40,125 nucleotides of DNA, taken from assembly GCA_023255445.1 (NCBI GenBank), contig JALRIL010000157.1, forward strand, positions 1-40,125, given 5' to 3'. A program made the position numbers and the translations under genes. The first letter of the stretch is position 1. Every line of letters starts with the position of its first letter. This document shows, piece by piece, positions 3,393 through 38,808 of this stretch. The stretch comes from Limnohabitans sp. GTDB lineage: Bacteria; Pseudomonadota; Gammaproteobacteria; Burkholderiales; Burkholderiaceae_C. Below the pieces are notes generated by a model. It made no database searches. It was not told the origin of the DNA and was given only the letters and a program-made list of their open reading frames with translations.

Positions 3393-4238
3393 TCAGGCAA
3401 CTTCGAAAGCCATCAGGCCCGTCGCCGTGTTGGAAATCGGGATGTGGTAGTTGCGGTGCACTTCCTTGACGCGCGGGCCGGCGGCTGACAAAGCCGCACG
3501 CATGGCCAGCCACATCAGCAGCTCCACGCCTTGCGTACCGGTCTTTTCCACCAAGTCCAAGCTGCTGAATTGGGTCGCCCATTCAGGGTTGCTGACCAGG
3601 CTGTCCATGAACTGCAGGTCAAACGCCTTGTTGATGAAGCCAGCACGCTCTCCATCGAGCTGGTGGCTCAGACCGCCCGAGGCCAGCACGGCAACTTTTT
3701 TGTCGCTGTCCCAGGCTGCAATCGCTTCGCCCACCGCCTTGCCCAGCGCATAACAGCGTTTGGCTGAGGGCAGCGGGAACTGCACGGTGTTGATGTTGAC
3801 CGGCACGATGGTCACCGGCGCCTCGCCCTCGGGCCAAAACAACTTCAGCGGCAGGGTACAGGCATGGTCAACCAGCATTTCCTGACAAGTCACAATGTCA
3901 AAGTCTTGGGCCACCAAATGGTTGATGATCTGCCAAGACAGATCCACCTCTCCCTTGAAGGATGGCAGCGTCGGGATGCCCCAACCCTCGTCGGCGTTGT
4001 CGTACTGGGCCGCAGCGCCCACGGCGAAGGTAGGCATTTTGTCAAGGAAGAAGTTCAGGCCGTGGTCGTTGTAAAAAATGACCATCACATCGGGCTTGTG
4101 CTCGCCCAGCCACTTTTGTACGGGCGGGTAACCGGTAAAAAACGGGGCCCAATAGGGGTCGGCCTGCAGGCCCTTGTGGATGGCGCCGCCAATGGCAGGG
4201 ATGTGAGATGAGGCGAGGCCGCCGATGAGTTGTGCCAT
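3393..4238 (-). CDS. Class III extradiol dioxygenase beta subunit (LigB-like, second copy)
   Basis: 281 aa; conserved His positions in ASSHIPAIG, YNDHG and GGLSHQL, and Glu in GVELLMWL. Paired with a small LigA-like gene. Confidence 0.88.
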   Translation of the reverse strand: MAQLIGGLASSHIPAIGGAIHKGLQADPYWAPFFTGYPPVQKWLGEHKPDVMVIFYNDHGLNFFLDKMPTFAVGAAAQYDNADEGWGIPTLPSFKGEVDLSWQIINHLVAQDFDIVTCQEMLVDHACTLPLKLFWPEGEAPVTIVPVNINTVQFPLPSAKRCYALGKAVGEAIAAWDSDKKVAVLASGGLSHQLDGERAGFINKAFDLQFMDSLVSNPEWATQFSSLDLVEKTGTQGVELLMWLAMRAALSAAGPRVKEVHRNYHIPISNTATGLMAFEVA

Positions 4239-4256
4239 GGTGAGTGTTCCTTGTGA

Positions 4257-4598
4257 TCAGCCGGCGTAAGCCTTGAGCTTGGCCTTGAATGCGTCTTTGC
4301 TCATGCCCGTCTGCTGAGCGCCGATGTCCTGCATGTCCAGGCCAAAAATGCCTGCGAACTTGGCCAGGTAGTAAGCGTTTGCGCCGGCCGCGATCAACTG
4401 CAGCACCTGGCGAGAACGGATGGCGGCCTTCTGAGTCTCGGTCAGGCCGTACTGATTCATGTAGGCCTCTTCGTCATGCTTGAAGGCGGCACGATTGGCG
4501 GCCTCGTTGAACGAAAAGCACATCTTGTTGAGGGCGTAGCCCTTGCGGGCCGAGTCGCCATCAAAGGGGGTCGTGCCTTCAATGGTGCGTTTGTCCAT
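4257..4598 (-). CDS. Extradiol dioxygenase alpha subunit (LigA-like, second copy)
   Basis: 113 aa LigA-type protein (SARKGYALNKMCFSFNEAANRAAF...EEAYMNQYGLTETQKAAIRSRQ), just upstream of the LigB-like gene. Confidence 0.87.
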   Translation of the reverse strand: MDKRTIEGTTPFDGDSARKGYALNKMCFSFNEAANRAAFKHDEEAYMNQYGLTETQKAAIRSRQVLQLIAAGANAYYLAKFAGIFGLDMQDIGAQQTGMSKDAFKAKLKAYAG

Positions 4599-8469: not shown

Positions 8470-10167
8470 CTAGGCTCCTGCCTGGTCGGCAATATGGTTA
8501 GCAGTGACGTACGCAAAGGTCATGTTCGGACCATGCGTAATGCCCGCTCCAGGGTAATTGCCCCCCATGATGCTGGCGCGATCATTGCCTGCAGCATACA
8601 GACCTTCAATTGCCGAGCCGTCGGATCGAAGCACTTGCCCATGCACGGAGGTTTGAATGCCATCAAATGTTCCCAGATCGCCCATGATGACCTTGATGGC
8701 GTAAAACGGTCCTTTGCGCACCGGCGCTACACAAGGATTGGGTTTGTGATCCGGGTCTGCCAAATAGCGATTGAAACTCGTGCGTCCGCGTCCAAATTCC
8801 GGGTCTTCGCCGCGTTCGGCATGGACGTTGTAGGCTGCAACCGTGGTCTCAAGGCCCTGTGGATCGATACCTGCTTTATGGGCCAGCTCTGCCAGCGTGG
8901 CACCCTCCATCAAATAGCCATTTCGCAGAAACGAGCCTATAGGTAGTGGCGCTGGTTTGACGTAGCCCAGACCATACTTACGCAGCGTCTGTTTGTCGCA
9001 CACCAGCCACATGGCCGTCTCGGGCAAGCTCTTGCAGGCCTCGATCATGGCCAAACCCACATCATGGTACGAGTTGGATTCATTGGTGAACCGACGACCG
9101 TTGCTGAGCACGCCAATGACGCCGGGCTTGTAGCGATCGAGCAAGTGCGGAAACACCCCGACCTCACCCCCCCCAAACTGGACTGGCGTGACAGGCATCC
9201 AGGCGGCACTGTCCACAAACCGGAGATCTACTGCCGCCCCGGCCTGCTCGGCCATGTTGACGCCATCGCCCGTATTGCTTGTTGGCGTTGGCGAAAGGTG
9301 TTGATGGCCGCGCCGCAAATGCGGGTAGGCCTGCGCAATGCGCTTGAGATCATGTGGAAAGCCCCCACTCGCCAGCACTACGCCATAGCGGGCTCGCATC
9401 AAGAGCCCAGCGCCTTCGGGCGTATGAACGCGCACGCCGGTCACGCGACCCTCGGTATGCTCCAGCGCAGTGACAGGATGAGACGTCCTGATGGGAATCT
9501 CCAGATCCAGCGCAGACTGCGCCAGACGCGCGGCCAATGCATTGCCGCTGGTCACCTGGATCGCTCGGCGATAAAGCAGCAGCTCCCGCAAATGATGGAC
9601 CAACCTGCGCGCCACATACCAAGCCGAAGTCAGGGACTTTGTGGCCCTGAAAAAGTGTTTCAAGTCGGCGTTGGATGAATTGAACATCATGCCCATGAAG
9701 GTGATGGTCTTCAAAGGAAGCTTGAGTCGAGGCATGTCCTTGCCAAGGCCACGAATATCGTAGGGCTTGGCAAGAATCGAGCGACCAATGTCCACGCCCC
9801 CACCTACGTCCGGGTGATAGTCAGGATAGAGGGTGGGTACAAACTGCATGGCTGTCTGACTCTCCAGCATGTCCACCATTTTCGGACCGTTATCAATGAA
9901 AGTCTGGACGGCATGTTCGTCATAGAAACGCCCTGTCTCATTCATCATGTAGGCATGTACGGCCTGTGCAGAATCTTGAGGGTTTTGTTTGCGCCCATGG
10001 CTGCTCAGCGGAATCCACAACACGCCACCGGACAAGGCGGTCGTCCCGCCAAACACTGCCTCTTTTTCAAGGACACACACCTTCAGTCCACGCTTTTTGG
10101 CCACGATGGCACAGGTCAGCCCCGCAGCCCCCGAGCCCACCACAATCACATCAAATTCCTGGTCCAT
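8470..10167 (-). CDS. FAD-dependent 3-ketosteroid-delta1-dehydrogenase-like / fumarate reductase-like oxidoreductase (copy 1)
   Basis: 565 aa; FDVIVVGSGAAGLTCAIVAKKRGLKVCVLEKEAVFGGTTALSGGVLWIP, and C-terminal GLYAAGNDRASIMGGNYPGAGITHGPNMTFAYV. Confidence 0.92.
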   Translation of the reverse strand: MDQEFDVIVVGSGAAGLTCAIVAKKRGLKVCVLEKEAVFGGTTALSGGVLWIPLSSHGRKQNPQDSAQAVHAYMMNETGRFYDEHAVQTFIDNGPKMVDMLESQTAMQFVPTLYPDYHPDVGGGVDIGRSILAKPYDIRGLGKDMPRLKLPLKTITFMGMMFNSSNADLKHFFRATKSLTSAWYVARRLVHHLRELLLYRRAIQVTSGNALAARLAQSALDLEIPIRTSHPVTALEHTEGRVTGVRVHTPEGAGLLMRARYGVVLASGGFPHDLKRIAQAYPHLRRGHQHLSPTPTSNTGDGVNMAEQAGAAVDLRFVDSAAWMPVTPVQFGGGEVGVFPHLLDRYKPGVIGVLSNGRRFTNESNSYHDVGLAMIEACKSLPETAMWLVCDKQTLRKYGLGYVKPAPLPIGSFLRNGYLMEGATLAELAHKAGIDPQGLETTVAAYNVHAERGEDPEFGRGRTSFNRYLADPDHKPNPCVAPVRKGPFYAIKVIMGDLGTFDGIQTSVHGQVLRSDGSAIEGLYAAGNDRASIMGGNYPGAGITHGPNMTFAYVTANHIADQAGA

Positions 10168-15466: not shown

Positions 15467-17194
15467 TCAGTGCAGACCCAACGCATGTCGTGCTGCAATA
15501 CGGGCAAAAACCAAGCCTGGACCCAAGGTGATACCTGGCGCCGGATAAGTCCCGCCCATGATCGAATGCATGTCATTGCCGACCGCATACAAGCCTGCCA
15601 TGGGCTGACCAAACTCACTCAGCAGTTGTGCGTGTTCATTGGTGGCAAACCCGGTGGAGGCGCCAATGTCCCCCGGATACAACCGAACAGCATAAAACGG
15701 GCCTTGTTTGAGTGGGCCAATATTCGGATTCTTGCCAGACCAGTTCGGGTCACCCAGGTTGTTCTGATAAGCCGTCTCACCACGGTGAAAGTCCGGGTCC
15801 ACACCCGTTTCGGCATAACGATTGATCTGCTCGACAGTGTGTTGCAGAACCTTTGCATCCATACCCAGCTTGTCAGCCAGCTGGGCCAGCGTGGCGCCTG
15901 CGGTCAGGTAACCGTCGGCCAGGAAGGGGCCCAGCCCTTTGCCACCCGGGCGCACCATGCCGATGCCGTACTTGCGCAGGGCTTCGGCATCGCACACCAG
16001 ATACGCCGGGATGCTGGGTGTGCTCTGGTGGGCTTGCTGCATGGCCAGACCGAACAGGTGGTAAGAGGTGCTTTCGTTCAGAAAGCGCTCGCCTTTGGCG
16101 TTGACGGTGATCATGCCGGGCTTGGCGCGGTCCATCACGAAGTGCGGGAACACCGCCGTGCTGCCGTCCGCTCGCGGGCGCAGCGACACCGGTGCCCAGA
16201 AAGCGTGCGACAAACCGCCCTGCCCGTACACCGCGCCCAGATGTCTGGCCAGATCGTGGGCCTGACCGGTGTGGCCCGGTGCGGCGGGCGACCATTCGCC
16301 CGGCACACCGGGCAGCATCTGCGCACGCAGCTCGGGGTGGCGGTTGAAGCCACCGCTGGCCAGCACCAGGCCTTTGTTCACACGGATGCTGCGGCGCTCG
16401 CTGCCGCACTCGAGGTCCACGCGCTCGACACCGTGCGTGCCGCGCACGATGTGCGCGACCGTGGTGTTCAGTGCGATCGTGACCTTCTCGTGCCTGGAGA
16501 GCGAATACAGCAGGCGCGCCACATGCGCATTGCCCATCACCAGACGCGTGCCGCGCGGCCAGCTCAGTCGGTCCATCGCATGGCGCAGCACGATCTTGAC
16601 CGAGTGCCTGAACGAGGCCCAGGACCGGGTCATCGCCAGCAGGTGGTTGATGTCGGTGCGGTCGACCATCATGCCGCCGATCACGGTGAACTCGGGGATC
16701 GGAGGACGCAGCAGCGCAAACAGCTCACGGCCCAGCAGACGCCCATCGAACGGCAGGGGCTCCAGCGCGCGGCCATTCAGTGTCGAGCCACCCAGGTCCG
16801 AGATGTAGTCGGGGTGCTTCGGATAGGGACGGTATTTCAGCTCCGAGCGTGATTCGACTTCATCGACCGCGGCGCGGCCATTCTGGAGAAAAGCCTCGCG
16901 CACGGCTTTGGACGTGCGATCGCCCACGGCGTTGTCCAGGTAGCGCCGGGTCTCGGCCAACGTGTCACCCGGGTTGACTTTGGCCGCATGCTTCGAGCCG
17001 GGAATCCAGCTGGTGCCGGCAGACCAGGCGGTGGTGCCGCCGACGAATTCGGTGCGTTCGACCAGCAGCACACTGGCGCCTTCCATGGCGGCAAACAGGG
17101 CAGCCGCCAAGCCGGCCCCACCGGCACCGATCACCACCAGGTCATAGGCGCTGTGTTCGTCCAGCTTTTGAATGCCGTTTTGGAGCACTTGCAT
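15467..17194 (-). CDS. FAD-dependent KSTD-like oxidoreductase (copy 2)
   Basis: 575 aa; YDLVVIGAGGAGLAAALFAAMEGASVLLVERTEFVGGTTAWSAGTSWIPGS, and C-terminal GLYAVGNDMHSIMGGTYPAPGITLGPGLVFA. Confidence 0.92.
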   Translation of the reverse strand: MQVLQNGIQKLDEHSAYDLVVIGAGGAGLAAALFAAMEGASVLLVERTEFVGGTTAWSAGTSWIPGSKHAAKVNPGDTLAETRRYLDNAVGDRTSKAVREAFLQNGRAAVDEVESRSELKYRPYPKHPDYISDLGGSTLNGRALEPLPFDGRLLGRELFALLRPPIPEFTVIGGMMVDRTDINHLLAMTRSWASFRHSVKIVLRHAMDRLSWPRGTRLVMGNAHVARLLYSLSRHEKVTIALNTTVAHIVRGTHGVERVDLECGSERRSIRVNKGLVLASGGFNRHPELRAQMLPGVPGEWSPAAPGHTGQAHDLARHLGAVYGQGGLSHAFWAPVSLRPRADGSTAVFPHFVMDRAKPGMITVNAKGERFLNESTSYHLFGLAMQQAHQSTPSIPAYLVCDAEALRKYGIGMVRPGGKGLGPFLADGYLTAGATLAQLADKLGMDAKVLQHTVEQINRYAETGVDPDFHRGETAYQNNLGDPNWSGKNPNIGPLKQGPFYAVRLYPGDIGASTGFATNEHAQLLSEFGQPMAGLYAVGNDMHSIMGGTYPAPGITLGPGLVFARIAARHALGLH

Positions 17195-17195
17195 G

Positions 17196-17990
17196 TCAGA
17201 CCTCCAGCAAAAACTGAACCATCAGGTCGCGGACACGGGCAAACATGTCGGCACCGGTCAGGGTGTTGCAGCCTTGGGCCCGGGCCGCGGCGATCATGAG
17301 TGGCACGGCAGGCGCAGTGATCACACAACCCACGAACTGCTGCGCCGTGAATTTCGTCGAATCGATCGGGTGCGGGTCGCCCTCTTTCATGCCGATCGGG
17401 GTGGCGTTGATGCAGAGGTCAAAGCCCGTGGGGTCGCTGCTGCCCGCCGAGACCTTGCCCAGGCCCAGACTGGCTAGGCGCGCCACCAGCGCGTCGCGGC
17501 GCACCACGTCGGCGTCGTGCACGGCCAGCTCTTTGACGCCGGCGGTCATCAGCGAATAGGCGATGGCCGAACCCGCACCGCCCGCGCCCACCAGCAAGGC
17601 GCGCTGGCCGCGCGGTTCACAGCCTTTGGATTTCAGCGCTTCGACATAGCCCATGCCATCGAACATGTCGCCGTGCCAGGTGCCGTCGGCGTTGCGGCGC
17701 AGGGTGTTGACGGCTTTCAGAAAACCGGCGCGGTCGGAGGTCGTGGCACACAACTCAAAGCAGGAGAACTTGTGCGGCACCGTCACGATGATGCCGTCCA
17801 CGTTCTGCGCCAGCGACACGCCTTTTGTCCAGCCCGCCAGATCGTTTGGTGCCACATGGGCCGGGATGCAGACCGCATTGCGACCTGCGTCATGGAAGGC
17901 CTGCGTCACACCGGCCGGGGATTTGACCTGGGCAATCGGGTCACCCACGATGAAATGGACGCGGGTGGCGCCGCTCAAGGCTTGCGACAT
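17196..17990 (-). CDS. Shikimate dehydrogenase (AroE) family oxidoreductase, divergent
   Basis: GDPIAQVKSPAGV, VTVPHK, GDMFDGMGY, LLVGAGGAGSAIAYSL, NATPIGM. Confidence 0.9.
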   Translation of the reverse strand: MSQALSGATRVHFIVGDPIAQVKSPAGVTQAFHDAGRNAVCIPAHVAPNDLAGWTKGVSLAQNVDGIIVTVPHKFSCFELCATTSDRAGFLKAVNTLRRNADGTWHGDMFDGMGYVEALKSKGCEPRGQRALLVGAGGAGSAIAYSLMTAGVKELAVHDADVVRRDALVARLASLGLGKVSAGSSDPTGFDLCINATPIGMKEGDPHPIDSTKFTAQQFVGCVITAPAVPLMIAAARAQGCNTLTGADMFARVRDLMVQFLLEV

Positions 17991-20020: not shown

Positions 20021-21781
20021 ATGGGTGCGCACCGCACACTGGACTGCGACCTGCTGGTCATCGGCTCGGGTGCCGGTGGCCTGTCGGCCGCTGTGACGGC
20101 CGCGCACCTGGGACTGAACGCCATCGTGGCCGAGAAGGACGCGCACTACGGCGGCACCACGGCCTGGTCGGGCGGCTGGATGTGGATTCCCCGCAACCCG
20201 CTCGCAGTCGAGGCCGGCATCCATGAGGCCATCGACAAACCCCTGTCCTATCTGCGCCACGAACTTGGCGAGCAGTTCGACGAAGCCCGCGCCCGCAGCT
20301 TTCTGGACAACGGCCCGCGCATGGTGGATTTCTTCCGCCGCAAGACGGCGCTGCAGTTCATCGACGGCAACGCCATCCCCGACTTTCACGGTCACACGCC
20401 CGATGCGGCCACCGGTGGCCGCTCGGTCTGCGCCGCGCCCTTCGATGGCCGTCGCCTGGGCGAGCGCCTGCATGACCTCAAAGCCCCGCTGCACGAGACC
20501 ACGCTGTGGGGCATGGGCATCGCCTCGGGCGCGGAGCTGCGGCACTTTCTGAACGCGCTGCACAAGCCTGCATCCTTTTGGTACGTCACGAAAAAAGTGT
20601 TACGTCACTGGCGCGACCTGCTGGTGCACCGGCGCGGCACACAGCTGGTCAACGGCAATGCGCTGGTGGCCGGTCTGGCCCGTTCGCTGCTGGACCAAGG
20701 CGGGCAGATTCTGACCAATAGCCCCGCCACGCGCCTGCTCAAGAACGACGGCCGCGTGACTGGCGCGGTGCTGCACACACCTCAGGGCGCACTGCATGTA
20801 CAAGCACGCCGCGGGGTGGTGCTGGCCTGCGGCGGCTTTCCGCACGACCCGAAACGCAAGCAGCAACTGCTGCTCCATGCCCCTACGGGTCATGAACACT
20901 GGTCGGCCGGCAACCGGGGCAACACCGGTGACGGCCTGCGCCTGGGCGAAAGCGCCGGCGGCCAGGTGGCGCGCGACCTGGTGCAGGCAGCCGCCCTCGC
21001 CCCCGTGTCGCTGGTGCCCCGAGCGAACCCTGGCAGCGAAGGCACCGTCGCGCATTTCCCGCACCTGATCGAGCGCGCCAAGCCCGGCCTGATCGCCGTG
21101 ACCGCGCGCGGCGAGCGCTTCACCAACGAGGCGAACTCTTACCACGACTTCATGCAGGGCCTGCTGGCCGCCACACCCGCAGGCCACAAGCCCGAGGCCT
21201 GGCTGCTGTGTGACCACACTTTCATCCGCTACTACGGTCTGGGCGCGGTCAAGCCCGCACCGATGCCGCTCACCCCCTGGCTGGGCAACGGTTATCTGAA
21301 GCGCGGCAACACACTGGCCGAACTGGCCCGTGCCTGCGGCCTTGACGCCGAACGCCTGCAGGCTACCGTGCAGCGCTACAACGCGCTCTGCCAGGATGGC
21401 CAGGACAAAGACTTTGCCAAGGGCGAGACGCCCTACAACCGCATCCAGGGCGATGCCATCCGCGCCACGGCGCGCGGCATGCCCAATCCCTGCATGGGTC
21501 CGCTCGCGCGCGGCCCTTTCTACGCCGTCAAGGTGGTCATGGGCAGCCTGGGCACCTTTGCCGGCCTGCGCGTGAACCCGCAAGGCCAGGTGATCGATGG
21601 GCAAGGCCAGCCGATTGCCGGCCTCTACGCCGGGGGCAACGACATGAACAGCCTCATGGGTGGCCACTACCCGGCCGGTGGCATCACGCTGGGCCCGGCC
21701 ATGACCTTTGGCTTCGTCGCGGCCCACCACCTGGCCGGTGTGGACCCGGCGCACAGCCCATTGAACTCAATAGTTAACTGA
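20021..21781 (+). CDS. FAD-dependent KSTD-like oxidoreductase (copy 3)
   Basis: 586 aa; CDLLVIGSGAGGLSAAVTAAHLGLNAIVAEKDAHYGGTTAWSGGWMWIPRN, and GLYAGGNDMNSLMGGHYPAGGITLGPAMTFGFVAAHHL. Confidence 0.93.
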   Translation: MGAHRTLDCDLLVIGSGAGGLSAAVTAAHLGLNAIVAEKDAHYGGTTAWSGGWMWIPRNPLAVEAGIHEAIDKPLSYLRHELGEQFDEARARSFLDNGPRMVDFFRRKTALQFIDGNAIPDFHGHTPDAATGGRSVCAAPFDGRRLGERLHDLKAPLHETTLWGMGIASGAELRHFLNALHKPASFWYVTKKVLRHWRDLLVHRRGTQLVNGNALVAGLARSLLDQGGQILTNSPATRLLKNDGRVTGAVLHTPQGALHVQARRGVVLACGGFPHDPKRKQQLLLHAPTGHEHWSAGNRGNTGDGLRLGESAGGQVARDLVQAAALAPVSLVPRANPGSEGTVAHFPHLIERAKPGLIAVTARGERFTNEANSYHDFMQGLLAATPAGHKPEAWLLCDHTFIRYYGLGAVKPAPMPLTPWLGNGYLKRGNTLAELARACGLDAERLQATVQRYNALCQDGQDKDFAKGETPYNRIQGDAIRATARGMPNPCMGPLARGPFYAVKVVMGSLGTFAGLRVNPQGQVIDGQGQPIAGLYAGGNDMNSLMGGHYPAGGITLGPAMTFGFVAAHHLAGVDPAHSPLNSIVN

Positions 21782-22438: not shown

Positions 22439-23245
22439 ATGAGCCGCATCTACTCCCTCGCCTACCTCACGTCGCACCGCTGCACACCCGCAGAGGCGAT
22501 CCGCATCGCCGCACAGACCGGCTACCAGTACGTGGGCCTGCGCCTGTGGCCCAATGCGCCCGGCGCTTCGCAGCAGCACCTGCTGGGCCAGCCGGCCGCC
22601 CTGCGCGAAGCACTGGCTGCACAGAAGGACACCGGCGTGGGTGTGTTCGATCTGGAGATCATCCGCATCAACGAACAGTTCGACCCGCACACCTGGGATG
22701 CGCTGTACGACGTGGGTGCGCAGCTCAAGGCCAAGGCGATTCTGGTGGCCGGTGACGACAACAACGAGGCCCGGTTGACCGAGAACTACGCCCGCCTGTG
22801 CGAGGTCATGCACCCCTTCGGCATGACGGCCGATCTGGAATTCATGCCCTGGACCGCGGTGAAAGACGCGAAGTCGGCGCTGCGCGTCGTGCAAAACGCC
22901 GGCATGCCTGCCAACGCGGGCATCCTGGTGGACGCACTGCACTTTGGCCGCTCCACCACCTCGCTGGACGACATCCGCACCATTCCGCGCCAGCTGCTGC
23001 ACTACGCGCAAATCTGCGATGCCGTGGCAGGACTGGATTTCACAACGGAAGAAATGATCCACACCGCGCGCTGCGAACGCCTGTTGCCGGGCGACGGCAC
23101 GATCGACATCCGAGCCCTGTTCGCCACCCTGCCCGCTGATCTCCCGGTCAGCGTGGAGGTGGTGAACTTTGACCGCGAAGCCCACACCCCACCCGACGCC
23201 TGGGCCGCCGAGTGCCTGGCAGCCAGCCGCCCCTTCACCCACTGA
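22439..23245 (+). CDS. Xylose isomerase-like TIM-barrel protein (sugar-phosphate isomerase/epimerase family; possible DSD-like dehydratase)
   Basis: 268 aa; metal-ligand-like positions in ADLEFMPW (E), GILVDALHFGR (D), YAQICDA (Q) and VSVEVVNFD (E). Confidence 0.85.
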   Translation: MSRIYSLAYLTSHRCTPAEAIRIAAQTGYQYVGLRLWPNAPGASQQHLLGQPAALREALAAQKDTGVGVFDLEIIRINEQFDPHTWDALYDVGAQLKAKAILVAGDDNNEARLTENYARLCEVMHPFGMTADLEFMPWTAVKDAKSALRVVQNAGMPANAGILVDALHFGRSTTSLDDIRTIPRQLLHYAQICDAVAGLDFTTEEMIHTARCERLLPGDGTIDIRALFATLPADLPVSVEVVNFDREAHTPPDAWAAECLAASRPFTH

Positions 23246-26258: not shown

Positions 26259-26500
26259 ACGACATCGGGCGATTCGGTGTGCGGCAAGGCCATCCGAATC
26301 GCCCCATGCGGACATCTTGGCTCGCACTTGCCGCAGGCTGTACAGCCCGGTGCATCGTGCAAAACTGCGTGTTTAACCCAATCTCGTGTCTTCAAGCTGA
26401 GCACATGCGGCCGACACACCGCCACACACCAGCCACAGCCCGTGCAACGTTCAGTGTCAATGTGCGGCAGCAACTTGGGCGTCATGGTGCCGCCTGTCAC
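26243..26500 (-). CDS. 2[4Fe-4S] ferredoxin-type protein
   Basis: 85 aa; [13 protein letters not shown] and [13 protein letters not shown] cluster motifs. Confidence 0.9.
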
Positions 26501-27585
26501 GCTGACGTTGAGGCCCCAGCGATCGCACCGCGGCGCAGCTGATCACGCTCCATGCTTTCAAACAGCGCCTTGAAGTTGCCTTCACCAAAACCCTCGTCAG
26601 CCTTGCGCTGAATGAACTCAAAGAAAACCGGGCCCAACAAGGTCTGGCTGAAGATTTGCAGCAACAGACGCTTTTCGCCGTTCGCGGTCGAGCCATCCAG
26701 CAAGATGCCGCGCGTCTGCAGCTCATTCACCGGCTCACCGTGCCCCGGAAGACGCTCGGCCAGCATCTCATAGTAAATCTCGTTGGGTGCGGTCATCAGC
26801 GGTATGCCTGCCATCTGCAACGCGTCCACGCTGGACAGCACATTGTCTGTCAGCAAAGCAATGTGCTGAATGCCTTCGCCATTGAACTGCTGCAGGTATT
26901 CCTCGATCTGCCCACCGTTTTGCCCTGACTCTTCGTTCAGGGGAATACGGATCAGCCCATCAGGCGCGGTCATAGCGCGGCTGGTCAAACCGGTGTATTC
27001 GCCTTGGATATCAAAGTAACGAATCTCGCGGAAGTTGAAAATCCGCTCGTAAAAATTGCCCCAGAAAGCCATGCGCCCTTTGTAGACGTTGTGCGTGAGG
27101 TGGTCGATGCATTTGAAACCGTGGCCCAAGGGATGGCGCTCCACCCCAGGCAACCATTCAAAGTCGATGTCATAAATGCTTTTGCCGTCCTCGAAGCGAT
27201 CAATCAGGTACAGCGGCGCACCACCAATGCCCTTGATGGCAGGTAGGCGCAGCTCCATGGGACCCGTGGGCACCTCGATGGGCTGAGCGCCCAGCTCCAG
27301 CGCACGCGCATATGCCTTGTGCGCATCGCGCACACGAAACGCCATGGCACACGGCCCTGGGCCATGCTCGGCCGCAAAAAACCCGGCCAGACTGCGCGGC
27401 TCGCGATTGACGATGAAGTTGATGTCGCCCTGCCGATACAAGACGACATCCTTGGATCGGTGTTGGGCCACACAGGTGAAGCCCAATTTTTCGAACAAAG
27501 GCTCCAGCACGCCCGACGCGGGCGATGCGAACTCCACAAACTCAAAGCCGTACAGGCCCATGGGATTGTCAAAAAGGTCTGTCAT
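26497..27585 (-). CDS. hpd: 4-hydroxyphenylpyruvate dioxygenase
   Basis: 362 aa from [22 protein letters not shown]. Fe ligand motifs [16 protein letters not shown] and FFEFIQRK, and C-terminal tail [24 protein letters not shown]. Confidence 0.93.
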
Positions 27586-27830: not shown

Positions 27831-28709
27831 TTAAGCCTGATGCGTCCAGCTGGGCAGCGGAGCCGTGCGATGCAGCACATCCTGGTGCAACCACATGGCG
27901 CTGCAGCGTGCACGCTCGGCCACCACATCAAGCGGCAGTTGTTGGTAATCGTCGTTGAACACCTCGAAGCTGTAGTCGCCGCGGTAACCTACGCGATCCA
28001 GGCGCAAGACCAAGTCGGCCAGTTGCTCGCTGTGCACGCCCTCGCCTGGGAAAACGCGGAAGGTACGCGCGGTGGTCATGCGCTCTTCAAAAGTCGGCGT
28101 CTCCTGCCACATGAAGTCCGACAATTGCACCAGGAAAATCTTGTCGGGGTCGAGTTCCTCAATCGCATCCAGCGGCGTCTTGGCCGCAAAGATGTGAAAG
28201 GAGTCGATGCCAATACCCAGGTTCGGGCAATCGGCGCGGCACACCACATCCCATGCCGTTGTGAATTCGTTGACGGTCCGCCCCCACGACAAGCCTTCGT
28301 AGGCCACTTTGATGCCCAAGGGCACCGCCAGCATGGCCAGCTTTTTCAGGTCAGCGGCAATTGCATCCAGATCTTGGGTGCCGTGGCGCGACGTTGACGA
28401 GCACGCCAGCAACACCTTGCTGCCCGTGGCTGCGCACATTTGCAGCATGGACTTGGCAATGTCGACCTTGTAGCTGTGCAAATGGCCGGATAGCCCCTCA
28501 AAATCGCGCAGCACCTGAAAACCGGTGGGGCGCAGTCCGCTGTCATGCACGGCCTGCACAGCGGCCTCCACACCGCCGGGGTGGGTGACCAGATCGCGCG
28601 CCATCAGCATCACTTGCGAAAAACCGGCGCGCTTCATGGCAGCCAGCTTGGCCTCCAGCGTGCCTGCCATGGTGATGGTGTCCATCCCGTAGCCTGCGAG
28701 CATATTCAT
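27831..28709 (-). CDS. 3-dehydroshikimate dehydratase (QuiC N-terminal type TIM barrel, stand-alone)
   Basis: 292 aa; KVAYEGLSWGR, LGIGIDSFHI, FLVQLSDFMW and YSFEVFNDDY preserve the E-D-Q-E metal site pattern of QuiC-type DSDs. Confidence 0.88.
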   Translation of the reverse strand: MNMLAGYGMDTITMAGTLEAKLAAMKRAGFSQVMLMARDLVTHPGGVEAAVQAVHDSGLRPTGFQVLRDFEGLSGHLHSYKVDIAKSMLQMCAATGSKVLLACSSTSRHGTQDLDAIAADLKKLAMLAVPLGIKVAYEGLSWGRTVNEFTTAWDVVCRADCPNLGIGIDSFHIFAAKTPLDAIEELDPDKIFLVQLSDFMWQETPTFEERMTTARTFRVFPGEGVHSEQLADLVLRLDRVGYRGDYSFEVFNDDYQQLPLDVVAERARCSAMWLHQDVLHRTAPLPSWTHQA

Positions 28710-28720
28710 GGCCGTGCCCT

Positions 28721-29599
28721 TTATTGATGAACCAGCTCGAAAGCCACTGAGCCCAAAGTGTTGCGCGTCAACGCGCCACGGTCTTCAGGGTGCAACTGGG
28801 TGGATTCGACAAACTCCACGCCTTGCGCCTTGAGGGCGGTCACGGCAGCGGCCACATCAGGAACGCCAAATCCAATGCGCTGCAGGCATTCAGGGCTGTT
28901 ATCACCGGACTCCATCCACGGGTCAGGCTCCACCAGTTGCCACAAGAAGCTGCCACACGGACTCTTCATGAGTTTGCCTTTGGGCAGGATGCCAAAACGC
29001 TCTTCATCCGGGATACTGGTGAAGTCAAACATGTGCTCGAAGTAAGTCAGCCAATCGCTGCTGCGGCCCGCACCGATGTACTGCACCACCCCAAAGTAGC
29101 GCATGCCAGCGAGCGCGGGTGGATGCTGATCCACGGTCGGAATCGGTTTGAAATCGATGTCGTAAATCGAAAATTCCTGCCACCTGTCCACAAAGTAGAA
29201 ACGGCTGCTGCCCGGCCCATGGATGGCGGGAATGTGCAACTCCATGGCCTGCGCATGACTGGCCACGCCCCAGGCCCCCAGATCCAGACAGCGTGTGTGC
29301 GCCTTCAGGGCGTCCTGCACGCGAAAAGCGACAGCAGAGATGACGGGCTGTCCGTCCACCGTGCCCGTCACGCGGGCATCATCGGGGCTGGCATTGACCA
29401 CCAGGTTCATGCCCCCCTGGCGGTAGAGCGTAACTTCGCGCGATCGATGGCGGGCCACGGGCCGAAAGCCCATGTTCTCCAGCACTTGCCCCAGCGCCTG
29501 CGGACGGCTGGTGGCGTACTCAATGAACTCAATTCCAGCAATACCCAAACGATTGGGCATTTCAGGTACTGATTCGCGGTCGGGCTTGTTCAGCGGCAT
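28721..29599 (-). CDS. HPPD-like (VOC fold) protein resembling the C-terminal domain of QuiC1; metal ligands not conserved
   Basis: 292 aa. The N-terminal half parallels HPPD (GIAGIEFIEYATSRPQALGQVLENMGFRPVARHRSREVTLYRQGGMNLVVN), but the HPPD His motifs are replaced by MRYFGVVQYIG and CLQRIGFGV. Confidence 0.82.
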   Translation of the reverse strand: MPLNKPDRESVPEMPNRLGIAGIEFIEYATSRPQALGQVLENMGFRPVARHRSREVTLYRQGGMNLVVNASPDDARVTGTVDGQPVISAVAFRVQDALKAHTRCLDLGAWGVASHAQAMELHIPAIHGPGSSRFYFVDRWQEFSIYDIDFKPIPTVDQHPPALAGMRYFGVVQYIGAGRSSDWLTYFEHMFDFTSIPDEERFGILPKGKLMKSPCGSFLWQLVEPDPWMESGDNSPECLQRIGFGVPDVAAAVTALKAQGVEFVESTQLHPEDRGALTRNTLGSVAFELVHQ

Positions 29600-29626: not shown

Positions 29627-30460
29627 TCAATAACTCAATCGTGCCACACGTCGCAACGCTTGTGCGGTGGTGGTGGGCAGATCAAAGTATTCCAGATAGG
29701 CGGGGATCTGCTCGAACAACATGTCAGAGCCGACCTGTGTCTTGCAACCACGCGCTTGGGCTGCAGCCAAAAAGGCGGTGGTTTCGTGTCGCATGACCAC
29801 TTCACCCACAAAAGTCTCTGGCGCCAGGCGCGACACATCCAAAGGCAAAGGGTCTCCCTCGTTCATGCCCATCGGGGTAGCGTTGACCACCAGGTCATGG
29901 CCAGCGGGATCGTTGCTGCCGGTATGCACGTTGATGTGCGGATAGTGCTGACGAATGCGCTTCGCCAGGCCTTCGCAGGCTACGCCGTTCACATCAAACA
30001 GACTGATCGCGGCAATCCCTGCGCCAGCCAGTGAGGCGGCAATGGCGCTGCCCACACCGCCGCTGCCCACCACCAGCACACGCTTGGCGGTCAGGTCAAA
30101 GCCTTTGCGTTGCACACCACGCACAAAGCCCGCACCGTCGAACATGTCGCCCACCAGTCGGCCGTCGGCCAGTTTCTTGACAGCATTGCAGGCGCCAGCC
30201 ACCCGCACTGTGGGGGTGACTTCGTCCAGCAGGTCGACCACCGCGACCTTGTGCGGCATGGTGATCAAGGCACCGCGGATGTTTTCCAGTGAAAACACCG
30301 CTTTCAAAAAGGTTGTGAATTGCTCGGGCTTACAGCCCATGGGCACCACCACCGCATTGATCCCTGCCTCTTCAAAGTAGGGGTTGTAAATCATCGGCGA
30401 CTTGAAGGTGTGGGTCGGATACCCGATGTGGGCAATGAGCTCGGTGTTGCCGTTGATCAT
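29627..30460 (-). CDS. Quinate/shikimate dehydrogenase (AroE) family protein
   Basis: IGYPTHTFKSPMIYNPYFEEAGINAVVVPM, ALITMPHK, GDMFDGAGF, VLVVGSGGVGSAIAASLAGAG, NATPMGM. Confidence 0.9.
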   Translation of the reverse strand: MINGNTELIAHIGYPTHTFKSPMIYNPYFEEAGINAVVVPMGCKPEQFTTFLKAVFSLENIRGALITMPHKVAVVDLLDEVTPTVRVAGACNAVKKLADGRLVGDMFDGAGFVRGVQRKGFDLTAKRVLVVGSGGVGSAIAASLAGAGIAAISLFDVNGVACEGLAKRIRQHYPHINVHTGSNDPAGHDLVVNATPMGMNEGDPLPLDVSRLAPETFVGEVVMRHETTAFLAAAQARGCKTQVGSDMLFEQIPAYLEYFDLPTTTAQALRRVARLSY

Positions 30461-30525
30461 GTCAGTCCATCACAAATGAGGTGAACAGGTGGCGGCGCCA
30501 AGCACCACCACCTCTAAACAAAAGC

Positions 30526-30547
30526 GCTGACCTCAGGGGAGGTCAGC
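30526..30547 (-). terminator. Putative terminator downstream of dctP (minus strand)
   Basis: GCTGACCTC-N4-GAGGTCAGC hairpin followed on the minus strand by a T-rich stretch (GCTTTTGTTTAGAG). Confidence 0.7.
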
Positions 30548-30557
30548 ACCAGGCGCA

Positions 30558-31553
30558 TCACTTGCGCAGCTTGGTCAGCTCAGCTTGAAGCTCGGCCACA
30601 GTACCGGCGATTTCAGCACCGTGCTTGGCAATCACGGGCTTCATTTTTTCGCGTAAAACTGCCATTTCGGAAGCGGGCAGCGTGCTCACTTGCATGCCGT
30701 TTTTCTTCAGGTTGTCCAGCAGGCTGGCTTCAAGTTCACGGGCCTTGGAACGCTGGAACTTGGCCGACTCAGCCACAGCGTCAGCCACGATCTTTTGTTC
30801 GCTGGCAGAGAGCTTGTCCCAGAACTTCTTGCTCATCACCACGGACTGGGGGTTGTACTGGTGACCAGTCAGGGCCAGATGCTTTTGCACTTCGTAGAAC
30901 TTGGCACCATTGATGGTGGCCACAGGGTTTTCCTGGCCGTCAACGGCTTTTTGTTCCAGTGCGGCGTACACCTCGGGCCAAGGCAGCGGTGTGGGGTTGG
31001 CGCCCAACGCTTTGACCCAGTCCACGTTGATGGCGTTAGGAATCACGCGCAGCTTCAGACCTTCAACGTCAGACACTTTGGTGATGGGATGCTTGCTATT
31101 GGTGATGTTGCGGAAACCCAGCTCGTAGTAACCCAGACCCACAATGCCTTTGTCCTGCAGTTTGGCATGCATCATCTTGCCGAAGGCGCCATCAACCACG
31201 GTGTCAGCTTCTTTGCCGTTGGCAAACATGAAGGGGAAATCGAACACGGCGAAGTCTTTGATCTGCGAAGCAAAAATACCCGAGTTCATGGACGCCATTT
31301 CCAGGGTGCCTGCTTGCAGGCCAGTCACGTTGGCCTGATCGCTGCCCAGCGTGCCGCCGGGGAACACATTGACTTTGAGTTGTCCACCGCTGTTTTTCTC
31401 AACGATTTCCTTGAATTTTTCCATGCCCAGAATGATGGGATGGCCGGCGGCGTTCTGGTTTGCGAACTTGATGGTCTTGACTTCAGCGCTGGCAATGCCA
31501 GCAGCAGCCAGGGCCACGGTGGCCAGAACGGTCTTGATGAACACACGTTTCAT
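30558..31553 (-). CDS. dctP: TRAP transporter solute-binding subunit DctP
   Basis: MKRVFIKTVLATVALAAAGIASAEVKTIKFANQNAAGHPIILGMEKFKEIVEKNSGGQLKVNVFPGGTLGSDQ. Confidence 0.95.
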   Translation of the reverse strand: MKRVFIKTVLATVALAAAGIASAEVKTIKFANQNAAGHPIILGMEKFKEIVEKNSGGQLKVNVFPGGTLGSDQANVTGLQAGTLEMASMNSGIFASQIKDFAVFDFPFMFANGKEADTVVDGAFGKMMHAKLQDKGIVGLGYYELGFRNITNSKHPITKVSDVEGLKLRVIPNAINVDWVKALGANPTPLPWPEVYAALEQKAVDGQENPVATINGAKFYEVQKHLALTGHQYNPQSVVMSKKFWDKLSASEQKIVADAVAESAKFQRSKARELEASLLDNLKKNGMQVSTLPASEMAVLREKMKPVIAKHGAEIAGTVAELQAELTKLRK

Positions 31554-31643: not shown

Positions 31644-32924
31644 TCAGTGATAGAACCAGTGCAAAGGCGCCAGAACCAACTGTGGGAACGCCACCAACAG
31701 AAACAGCACAATGATTTGCGCACACATGAAGGGCAGCACGCCACGCGCAACCTGGTCAATCTTCATCTTGCCCACACCCGCAACCACATTGAGCACCGTG
31801 CCCACAGGAGGAGTGGTCAGACCAATGGCACCGTTCATCACAAACAGCACGCCAAAGTAAATGGGGTCAATACCGGCAGCCTTGACCACAGGGATCAGCA
31901 CAGGGGCCAGGATCAAGATGGTGGGCGTCAAGTCCATGGCCATGCCGATCAACAAGATCAGCACCATGATGATCACCAGCAACAAGGTCGGACTGTCCAT
32001 GAAGGGTTGCAGCAGCTCGATCAATTGCGTGGGCAACTGCGCCACGGTGATCAACCAGGCACTCACCGCAGCGGCTGCCACCAGGAACATGATGATCGCG
32101 GTGGTCTTGCTGGCCGCCACCATCACCTCGTAGAGCTGATGCAGTTTGAGTTCGCGGTACACCACGGTCGACACAAACAGCGCGTACACAGCGGCCACCA
32201 CAGCCGCTTCGGTTGGCGTGAAGATCCCCATCTTGAGACCGACCAGCACGATCACCGGCAGCACCATGGCCCAGGTGGATTCGCGCAGCGCTTTGAGGCG
32301 CTCTGCACGAGTAGCCTTCGGGGGCGTCTGCGCACCCTCACGTCGTGCGACGAGCCACCAAGTCAGAGCAATTGAAACACCCATCATCACACCAGGCACG
32401 ATACCGGCCAGGAACAGTTTGCCAATCGACAGGTTGCCAGCCACGCCAAAAATCACAAACGGAATCGAAGGCGGAATGATCGGGGCGATGATGCCCGCCG
32501 AGCCAATCAGGCCACCTGCACGGCCTTTGTCGTGCCCAGCCTTGACCATCATGGGCAGCAACAACGCCGCCAGCGCGGCCGTGTCGGCCACGGCAGAGCC
32601 CGACAAGGATGCCATCATGACCGCAGCAAGAATCGTCACGAAGCCCAAACCGCCCTGCACATGGCCTACCAAGCTGAGCGCCAGGTTCACGATACGCTTG
32701 GACAGGCCACCCACATTCATGATCTCGCCGGCCAGCATGAAGAAAGGTACGGCCAGCAAGGGGAAGCTGTTGGCCCCTTCGAGCACGTTTTGCGCCAGGA
32801 TCTGGGCATCAAACATGTCCAGGTGCCACATCAGTGCCACACCGGACAAGAGCAGGGAATACGCGATGGGAATACCTATCGCAATGGCAGCGATCAGGGC
32901 ACCCAGAAAAATCAGAATCGTCAT
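31644..32924 (-). CDS. dctM: TRAP transporter large permease DctM
   Basis: 426 aa hydrophobic; LLAVPFFMLAGEIMNVGGLSKRIVNLA, DLTPTILILAPVLIPVVKAAGIDPIYFGVLFVMNGAIGLTTPPVGTVLNVV. Confidence 0.96.
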   Translation of the reverse strand: MTILIFLGALIAAIAIGIPIAYSLLLSGVALMWHLDMFDAQILAQNVLEGANSFPLLAVPFFMLAGEIMNVGGLSKRIVNLALSLVGHVQGGLGFVTILAAVMMASLSGSAVADTAALAALLLPMMVKAGHDKGRAGGLIGSAGIIAPIIPPSIPFVIFGVAGNLSIGKLFLAGIVPGVMMGVSIALTWWLVARREGAQTPPKATRAERLKALRESTWAMVLPVIVLVGLKMGIFTPTEAAVVAAVYALFVSTVVYRELKLHQLYEVMVAASKTTAIIMFLVAAAAVSAWLITVAQLPTQLIELLQPFMDSPTLLLVIIMVLILLIGMAMDLTPTILILAPVLIPVVKAAGIDPIYFGVLFVMNGAIGLTTPPVGTVLNVVAGVGKMKIDQVARGVLPFMCAQIIVLFLLVAFPQLVLAPLHWFYH

Positions 32925-32933
32925 GTCTTGTCC

Positions 32934-33482
32934 TCAATCCTTACGCTGCAGATGTTGTTGAAGCTCCAGCTCGGGAGCCTCCAATCCGCTGGGCAAATGT
33001 TCAGCGCCCGGCAAGGGCTTGCCCGACACCAACGCCCACAGGTCCAGCAACAGCAGCACACCCGAGGACGCAGCAAACACCAGACCGCTGCTCATGGCCC
33101 AAGCTGTGGAAAAACCAGACACTGGCGCTATGTCCCCTACGCTCAACTGCGTCTGGATCCAGCTGCCCTTGAGCATCAGCCAAGTGACCCACAGCATCAG
33201 CAGGTGGGAAATCACCAGCACCGCACGTTGTGCGGGTTTGGGCAACTTGACCAGCAGCATGTCGGTGCCCATGTGTGCACGCTCTCGCACCGCAATCGTT
33301 GCACCCAGGAACACCACCCACAGGAAAAACCAGCGCGACAACTCTTCGGACACGGTGATACCCGTGTTGAAGCCATAGCGCAGCACCACGTTGCCAAACA
33401 CCATGACCACCATCACGGCCAAACACACCACCATCAGCACCGACAGGGCTTTGCAGTAGCGATCAATCCAACGATCCAACAT
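32934..33482 (-). CDS. dctQ: TRAP transporter small permease DctQ
   Basis: 182 aa; VMVFGNVVLRYGFNTGITVSEELSRWFFLWVVFLGATIAVRERAHMGTDML. Confidence 0.93.
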   Translation of the reverse strand: MLDRWIDRYCKALSVLMVVCLAVMVVMVFGNVVLRYGFNTGITVSEELSRWFFLWVVFLGATIAVRERAHMGTDMLLVKLPKPAQRAVLVISHLLMLWVTWLMLKGSWIQTQLSVGDIAPVSGFSTAWAMSSGLVFAASSGVLLLLDLWALVSGKPLPGAEHLPSGLEAPELELQQHLQRKD

Positions 33483-33587: not shown

Positions 33588-34232
33588 TTATTGCTTGCAG
33601 TACGCCAGAATGAGATCAACCACTTGCTGTCGCCGCAGGATCTGCGCCTTCTGTGTGGTGTGCTCACGGTCAAAAATGACGCCAAAGGTGTGACGGTTGG
33701 CCACGTTGAACACGGTCAAGGCCGAGATGGCCGCATGGATGTCCACAGGGTCCAGGCCCTTTCGGAACACCCTGTCTGTGACCCCCCGCTCGTAGAGTTC
33801 GCGAATTGCATCAATGGCTTTGACGTTGAGTTGCCGGATGCTCTTGCTCTGACGCAGGTAGTGAGCGCGATGAATGTTTTCACTGCTGACCAGGCGAATG
33901 AAGTCTTCGTTATCGCGATGATGGTCGTAGGTGAACTCCACCAGACGCTGCAAGGCTTGGGCCGGCGGCAAATCCCCCAGGTGCAGATCGGCCTCGATGC
34001 TGCGCATGCGTCGATAGGCCTCCTCCAACGCAGCCAGGTACAAACCATCCTTGCTGCCGAAGTAGTAATAGATCATGCGCTTGCTGGTGCGGGTGGCTGC
34101 GGCAATTTCATCAATACGTGCCCCCGCTAGCCCCTTGTCGGCAAACTCGTGCGTGGCCACCACCAGGATCTCCGCCATGGTGCGGGCAGGATCGTTGGTG
34201 CGCGCTTCGCGTTCAGTGCTGACTTTGCTCAT
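33588..34232 (-). CDS. TetR-family transcriptional regulator
   Basis: N-terminal HTH: MAEILVVATHEFADKGLAGARIDEIAAATRTSKRMIYYYFGSKDGLYLAALEEAYR. Confidence 0.95.
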   Translation of the reverse strand: MSKVSTEREARTNDPARTMAEILVVATHEFADKGLAGARIDEIAAATRTSKRMIYYYFGSKDGLYLAALEEAYRRMRSIEADLHLGDLPPAQALQRLVEFTYDHHRDNEDFIRLVSSENIHRAHYLRQSKSIRQLNVKAIDAIRELYERGVTDRVFRKGLDPVDIHAAISALTVFNVANRHTFGVIFDREHTTQKAQILRRQQVVDLILAYCKQ

Positions 34233-35103: not shown

Positions 35104-35937
35104 TCAGATCAAGGGCACGGTCAACTGTGCAATGACCGCCGAGGTATCAGGCCGCACACCGCGCCACCACACAAAAGCCTCGGCCGCCTGCTCAGCCAGC
35201 ATGCCCACTCCGTCAGCAAGCCGCGTGACACCGGCTTGCTGGGCCAGTTTGAGGAACGGCGTGAGGCCTTTGCCGTAAGCCAGCTCGTACGCCAAAGCAC
35301 CAGGCGCAAACACGCTGGCAGGCAGCGGTGGTAACTCGGCTGTCAGGCTGGCCGATGTCGCGTTGAACACCACATCAAACTGCTGGCCCTGCAACTGGTC
35401 GTAGCCCAGTCCTTGCACCGGGACCCGACCAGGTTGATGTTGCTCGGCCAACTGCGCCAGCTCCTGCGCCTTGCTCAAGGTGCGGTTGACCACCACCAGC
35501 TGCGACGGCTGCTCTGCCAGGAAGGGCAACAAGGCACCACGCGTGGCACCGCCTGCACCCAGGATCAGCACGCGTTGCCCACGCAGCGGGCACCCCAGGT
35601 TGTGCACCACATCACGCACCAACCCCACACCATCGAAGTTTTCGGCGTAAACCCGATCCGCCTCGAACTTCAACGCATTGACGGCACCGGCCATCTTGGC
35701 ACTGGGTGCCAGATCGGTGGCATAGGCAAAGGCGTCGAGCTTGAACGGCGCGGTCACATTCATGCCCTTGCCGCCTGCCGCTCGAAAGGTGTCCACCGCC
35801 GCTGCAAAACCACCCAAAGGACCCAGCACCTTGCTGTAGTCGATGTCTTGGCCCGTCACCTGCGCAAACGCCATGTGGATGAAGGGGGACTTGCTTTGTT
35901 CGATGGGGTTGCCGATCACGGCGTAGCGGTCAGTCAT
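35104..35937 (-). CDS. aroE: Shikimate dehydrogenase, canonical AroE-like
   Basis: MTDRYAVIGNPIEQSKSPFIH (SKSP), GMNVTAPFK, NFDGVGLVRD, VLILGAGGATRGALLPFL, NATSASL. Confidence 0.9.
   Translation of the reverse strand: MTDRYAVIGNPIEQSKSPFIHMAFAQVTGQDIDYSKVLGPLGGFAAAVDTFRAAGGKGMNVTAPFKLDAFAYATDLAPSAKMAGAVNALKFEADRVYAENFDGVGLVRDVVHNLGCPLRGQRVLILGAGGATRGALLPFLAEQPSQLVVVNRTLSKAQELAQLAEQHQPGRVPVQGLGYDQLQGQQFDVVFNATSASLTAELPPLPASVFAPGALAYELAYGKGLTPFLKLAQQAGVTRLADGVGMLAEQAAEAFVWWRGVRPDTSAVIAQLTVPLI

Positions 35938-37489: not shown

Positions 37490-38794
<1,305 letters not shown>

Positions 38795-38808
<14 letters not shown>

Follow-up and report, generated by a model that had tools for sequence, protein, structure and literature searches.

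The stretch of contig JALRIL010000157.1 from Limnohabitans sp. analysed here (40,125 nucleotides, hereafter the window) carries a gene of the 3-dehydroshikimate dehydratase type, DSD, next to a gene for a metal-less relative of 4-hydroxyphenylpyruvate dioxygenase (HPPD), VOC. The locus raises the question of what an HPPD relative that has lost its iron site does beside a dehydratase, and whether the two genes are a split form of QuiC1. The pair consists of:

28721–29599, minus strand: VOC, HPPD-derived metal-less protein, 292 aa (PF14696, E 2.4e-44; TIGR01263, 80 bits)
27831–28709, minus strand: DSD, single-domain TIM barrel of the 3-dehydroshikimate dehydratase type, 292 aa (matching the N-terminal half of QuiC1, the N-domain of PDB 5HMQ, with E 4.7e-39)

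VOC lies upstream and DSD downstream, the VOC stop codon and the DSD start codon ATG being separated by 11 bp; the initial annotation had correctly described a separate HPPD-like gene directly upstream of a barrel with an intact E-D-Q-E metal set. The four metal residues of DSD (E138, D169, Q195, and E249) are all present in the alignment, and so are R68, H172, and R218 from the list of QsuB/QuiC1 active-site residues (PMC7442255), the single change being Ser to Ala at position 214. The active-site string RLELWDHQARE is identical in 117 of 130 relatives. DSD belongs to the class of TIM-barrel dehydratases without a fused HPPD domain, and its reading frame is separate from that of VOC in the loci examined. 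The QuiC1 profile NF042435 assigned the two genes scores of 157 and 77.5 bits, below its cut-off of 1200. By description rather than by sequence, DSD resembles the lone TIM-barrel dehydratase subunits AsbF, fungal Qa-4, and QuiC2, for which an HPPD-like partner gene goes unmentioned in PMC9324987.

The genes surrounding the pair indicate the pathway in which it operates:

26497–27585, minus strand: true HPPD with a complete ligand set, 245 bp downstream of the pair (TIGR01263, 379.5 bits)
29627–30460, minus strand: shikimate-dehydrogenase-family (SDH) protein, next upstream of VOC (PF08501; aroE-type models below cut-off)
30558–31553, minus strand: TRAP solute-binding protein DctP (PF03480)
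31644–32924, minus strand: TRAP large permease DctM (PF06808)
32934–33482, minus strand: TRAP small permease DctQ (PF04290)
33588–34232, minus strand: TetR-family regulator, recurrent near VOC–DSD loci (PF00440/PF17938)
37490–38808, minus strand: protocatechuate 4,5-dioxygenase beta and alpha subunits (NF009903, NF009917, and TIGR02792 over cut-off)

Protocatechuate 4,5-dioxygenase catalyzes the step downstream of the DSD product. An SDH-family gene occurs within about 9 kb of the pair in 42 of 52 loci and a type II dehydroquinase nearby in 26 of 52; other recurrent neighbours are shikimate-type MFS transporters, TRAP or Liv-type ABC uptake systems, PcaR-type regulators, and 4,5-dioxygenase genes. 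A genuine HPPD gene beside the pair was not seen in the relatives examined. The VOC–DSD loci are catabolic clusters leading from quinate and shikimate to protocatechuate, and this context supports the predicted dehydratase function of DSD.

The window has several further features. A 12-bp terminator-like hairpin (30523–30550, minus strand) lies between the DctP gene and the SDH–VOC–DSD genes. Three SDH-family genes are present (17196–17990, 29627–30460, and 35104–35937, minus strand), only the last of which passes the aroE cut-off. The protein encoded beside VOC carries GDMFDG where AroE usually has the NTDG motif, so its substrate may differ. Two different alpha/beta sets of the protocatechuate 4,5-dioxygenase type occur, at 3393–4598 and 37490–38808 (minus strand). 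A second TIM barrel (22439–23245, plus strand; PF01261, no NCBIfam match) agrees with DSD at the positions of the active site, where it reads RLEMWDHQARE. Clustered with it, apart from the pair, are genes for an FAD oxidoreductase, a NIPSNAP protein, an IclR regulator, and a Gfo/Idh/MocA protein; relatives of this barrel adjoin the VOC–DSD pair in Curvibacter. Of three FAD_binding_2 flavoproteins (8470–10167, 15467–17194, and 20021–21781), the last is similar to dehydrogenases of 4-oxocyclohexene-carboxylate and 3-ketosteroids, which hints at degradation of alicyclic acids.

The pair is conserved well beyond this strain. VOC orthologues share about 50–91% identity and are set apart by a clear gap from HPPD, at about 36–45%. 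They are carried by 42 of 60 genomes of the genus, by 67 of 201 genomes in a sample of the family and, own genus included, by 11 of the 120 genera sampled across the order, while no further orthologue was found beyond the order among 274 genomes of the class. Limnohabitans, Rhodoferax, Curvibacter, and Delftia acidovorans are among the named carriers. VOC and DSD are neighbours in all 67 VOC-positive genomes of the family, the barrel in G134 being cut by a contig end. Counted by locus, some genomes giving more than one, DSD follows VOC on the same strand in 187 of 189 cases; the two exceptions are a contig end and a junction deletion in a MAG. The spacing is mostly between −4 and about +100 bp, with 4-bp overlaps in 17 loci, and an SDH-family gene is inserted between the two in four genomes. 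No natural fusion of VOC and DSD was seen among the 189 loci. Long open frames considered as such proved to be run-on frames or fused QuiC1, and the candidate L092, from a MAG, results from a deletion at the junction that is out of frame.

The two domains of VOC have had different fates. The N-domain is HPPD-like and intact, matching the HPPD N-terminal domain PF14696 with 151 bits (gathering score 27), and sequence identity to HPPD is about 40% over the N-terminal part. VOC also has the HPPD fold (PDB 1CJX and 7X8E; Foldseek E 2e-26). With the full-length HPPD model TIGR01263, VOC stays below the cut-off of 277 bits, its C-terminal domain being matched weakly. This C-domain lacks the iron site, at which three codons are of interest:

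29090–29092, minus strand: G170, replacing the first HPPD iron His (alignment)
28877–28879, minus strand: R241, replacing the second HPPD iron His (alignment)
28736–28738, minus strand: E288, the retained HPPD iron-ligand Glu (alignment)

The corresponding HPPD ligands, which we take to be His161, His240, and Glu322 in P. fluorescens numbering, align with G170, R241, and E288, respectively. The His/His/Glu set is present in all 40 HPPDs examined; Gly-Arg-Glu is invariant in all 152 distinct VOC homologues from Burkholderiales, as well as in a VOC retrieved later from a Massilia plasmid, which bears out the earlier reading that both iron histidines are missing and the final Glu is kept. Across the 152 homologues the C-domain contains no invariant His. 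The sole invariant His of VOC is H51 of the N-domain, common to HPPD, so that VOC has no conserved replacement for the two-His site. The C-terminal helix segment of HPPD is also absent from the VOC alignment, and among the HPPD substrate residues Ser201 is replaced by Gly and Asn216 by Ile or Val, while Gln225 is deleted. On both annotated plasmid records checked (L277 and L278; NZ_CP022424.1 and NZ_CP019037.1) VOC is labelled 4-hydroxyphenylpyruvate dioxygenase. This name is likely a misannotation, since VOC very probably does not have that activity.

The former active site has not simply been emptied. Of the alignment columns that are fixed in HPPD and likewise in VOC, all 9 in the N-domain keep the same residue, and of the 13 in the C-domain 5 are identical and 8 have switched (Fisher p 0.006). 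The eight switches from HPPD to VOC are D to F, H to G, T to V, H to Q, S to G, P to Q, H to R, and I to V; as placed by alignment, they fall on ligand-bearing strands or at substrate-contact positions, for the most part within or next to the former active site. VOC is under purifying selection, with pairwise dN/dS of about 0.03–0.12 in most intact lineages. Judged from these patterns, the pocket does not look like a merely decayed site but like one rebuilt with fixed residues, which makes ligand binding or a new activity likelier than a plain scaffold. The initial annotation had suggested a pseudoenzyme, scaffold, or regulatory subunit; pseudoenzyme holds as far as dioxygenase chemistry is concerned, while a plain scaffold loses ground to the invariance of the pocket residues.

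The explanation that we tentatively prefer is that VOC serves as a metal-free ligand-binding partner of the single-domain DSD. In this quinate/shikimate catabolic cluster, which belongs to a betaproteobacterium of the Limnohabitans type, DSD would act as a single-domain dehydroshikimate dehydratase producing protocatechuate, which the 4,5-dioxygenase encoded nearby would cleave. VOC derives from a bacterial HPPD, its iron site having disappeared before its family diversified, and its former active site has been refitted with the fixed residues Q173, Q221, R241, and E288, of which R241 could supply the positive charge formerly provided by iron. The refitted site may bind a carboxylate of the pathway, either 3-dehydroshikimate or protocatechuate, and through a putative association with DSD the protein could stabilize or tune the dehydratase. 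Adjacency, the catabolic setting, the conserved active site of DSD, the fixed pocket residues and purifying selection on VOC, and the trees speak for this explanation. Against it count the failure of the structure prediction described below to give an interface, the loss of DSD metal ligands in about four lineages with VOC intact, and the genome G255, in which a stop interrupts VOC and DSD is intact.

The main rival, which we consider rather unlikely, holds that VOC itself catalyses a new reaction, independent of metal, on an intermediate of quinate/shikimate breakdown, for instance as an isomerase, epimerase, or lyase acting via R241, E288, and Q221, and that DSD is only its neighbour in the pathway. 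The fixed replacements in the former active site would suit such an enzyme, as would the unequal decay of the two genes. Most lineages retain the full DSD metal set; it is altered in Curvibacter, in the related genera represented by G112/G227 and G082/G209, and in G077 and G407, corresponding to about four losses on the tree, and the VOC signature is kept in every one of these lineages. In informative pairs from them, dN/dS is 0.37–0.56 for DSD, still below 1 and with the frame open, against 0.11–0.31 for VOC, although in the intact pair L208/L158 it is also high in both genes. Since VOC remains intact where the metal ligands of DSD have been lost, its role cannot be confined to aiding catalysis by that barrel. 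The barrels of G082/G209, only about 35% identical, were considered as a possible partner swap, but this was rejected because they branch, on a long branch, within the VOC-linked clade.

Retention of VOC in genomes that already have QuiC1 likewise favours a new activity. As a raw association, DSD loss is found in 8 of 13 cases with QuiC1 and 2 of 68 without it (Fisher p 1.6e-6). The proposal that DSD decays only where QuiC1 is present was nevertheless kept as suggestive only, because about four losses on the tree are too few for independent pairs to become significant, and a plasmid of Massilia putida with both QuiC1 and an intact DSD is a counter-case. In G255 (L197) it is VOC that carries a premature stop, an in-frame TAG near codon 136; DSD is intact and QuiC1 is also encoded in the genome. 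Against an independent enzyme stand the fact that VOC was never found apart from its barrel neighbour, not even in lineages with a probably dead barrel, the lack of any missing pathway step calling for it, and its failure to match a known metal-free VOC enzyme. It is likewise unlikely, though compatible with the same pattern, that the HPPD-family dioxygenase has lost its metal and gained a new pocket, Arg standing in for iron, with a ligand or activity of its own in quinate/shikimate catabolism, and that the barrel partner, a dehydratase at first, has turned into a non-catalytic subunit in some lineages, so that VOC would be the essential half of the pair.

That VOC is purely a scaffold for DSD is improbable. 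Strict adjacency would fit such a role, and there is a precedent in QsuB, which without its HPPD-like domain passes from an octamer to a monomer, Km falling twofold and kcat threefold (PMC7442255). A scaffold, however, has no need for an invariant set of new residues at the former active site, and structure prediction gave no interface. The pair was modelled with AlphaFold as one chain, using loci with both genes in one frame and reading the stop codon as Gly, which amounts to an artificial tether. The model folds each half well (mean pLDDT 86), with PfHPPD and 5HMQ as the best PDB matches, but the tethered 1:1 model shows no confident VOC–DSD interface. Its pTM is 0.58 versus 0.90 for a QuiC1 control chain, which was based on only 21 sequences and was favoured, as 5HMQ, released in 2016, predates the AlphaFold2 training cut-off. 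The prediction thus offers no support for 1:1 packing like that of QuiC1 and is compatible with higher assemblies.

Fission of QuiC1, the origin implied by the initial annotation in calling the pair an unfused QuiC1, is very improbable. Like the pair, QuiC1/QsuB (NF042435, PDB 5HMQ) combines a DSD TIM barrel with an HPPD-family protein in quinate/shikimate catabolism, and DSD is homologous to the QuiC1 N-domain, with about 33–35% identity. QuiC1, however, is a single polypeptide in the order DSD–HPPD, whereas here two genes stand in the reverse order and the HPPD relative is of other origin. In two trees VOC forms one clade (support 100) on a long branch (about 1.5 changes per site) that joins the bacterial HPPDs, and the C-domains of QuiC1 form another (support 100); these trees are rooted by midpoint only and long branches meet in them, which leaves some room for fission. 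The barrel tree also places the VOC-linked DSDs and the QuiC1 N-domains in separate clades. Moreover, both systems coexist in 14 genomes, 11 from one survey plus three further ones of Curvibacter, and on one Massilia plasmid. Separate clades, reversed order, and coexistence fit two separate recruitments better than fission, and by these comparisons an HPPD relative seems to have been paired with a DSD a second time, independently of QuiC1. What stands of the earlier claim is that DSD is paired, in a conserved cluster, with a separate HPPD-like protein unable to bind iron as HPPDs normally do.

The HPPD-like domain of QuiC1, unlike VOC, keeps the first His in 22 of 22 sequences, the second in 17 of 22, and the Glu in 21 of 22. 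The second His is Gln in the remaining five (L165, L172, L173, L268, and L262), and in L173 the Glu is Gly, so this metal site also appears to be relaxing in places.

Finally, that VOC is a decaying, functionless HPPD duplicate hitch-hiking in the operon, as loss of the iron ligands and C-terminal helix might suggest, is refuted by its conservation, with dN/dS well below 1 and invariance across 152 sequences from several families of the order, and is hardly credible.

In practical terms, annotation as 4-hydroxyphenylpyruvate dioxygenase, as on both plasmid records, is very probably wrong for this protein, which provides a case of an iron site replaced by a fixed set of non-metal residues. A literature search, whose coverage extended to neither the 2017 QuiC1 structure nor the 2020 QuiC2 papers, found nothing on a VOC/DSD pair or on a VOC pseudoenzyme in the quinate/shikimate pathway. 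The role of the HPPD-like domain in QuiC1/QsuB is itself an open question (PMC7442255), and the two-gene version allows the association to be tested simply by omitting one protein. If HPPD relatives came together with a DSD on two independent occasions, once as a fusion that kept the metal site and once as a separate metal-less protein, the association itself would have been selected.
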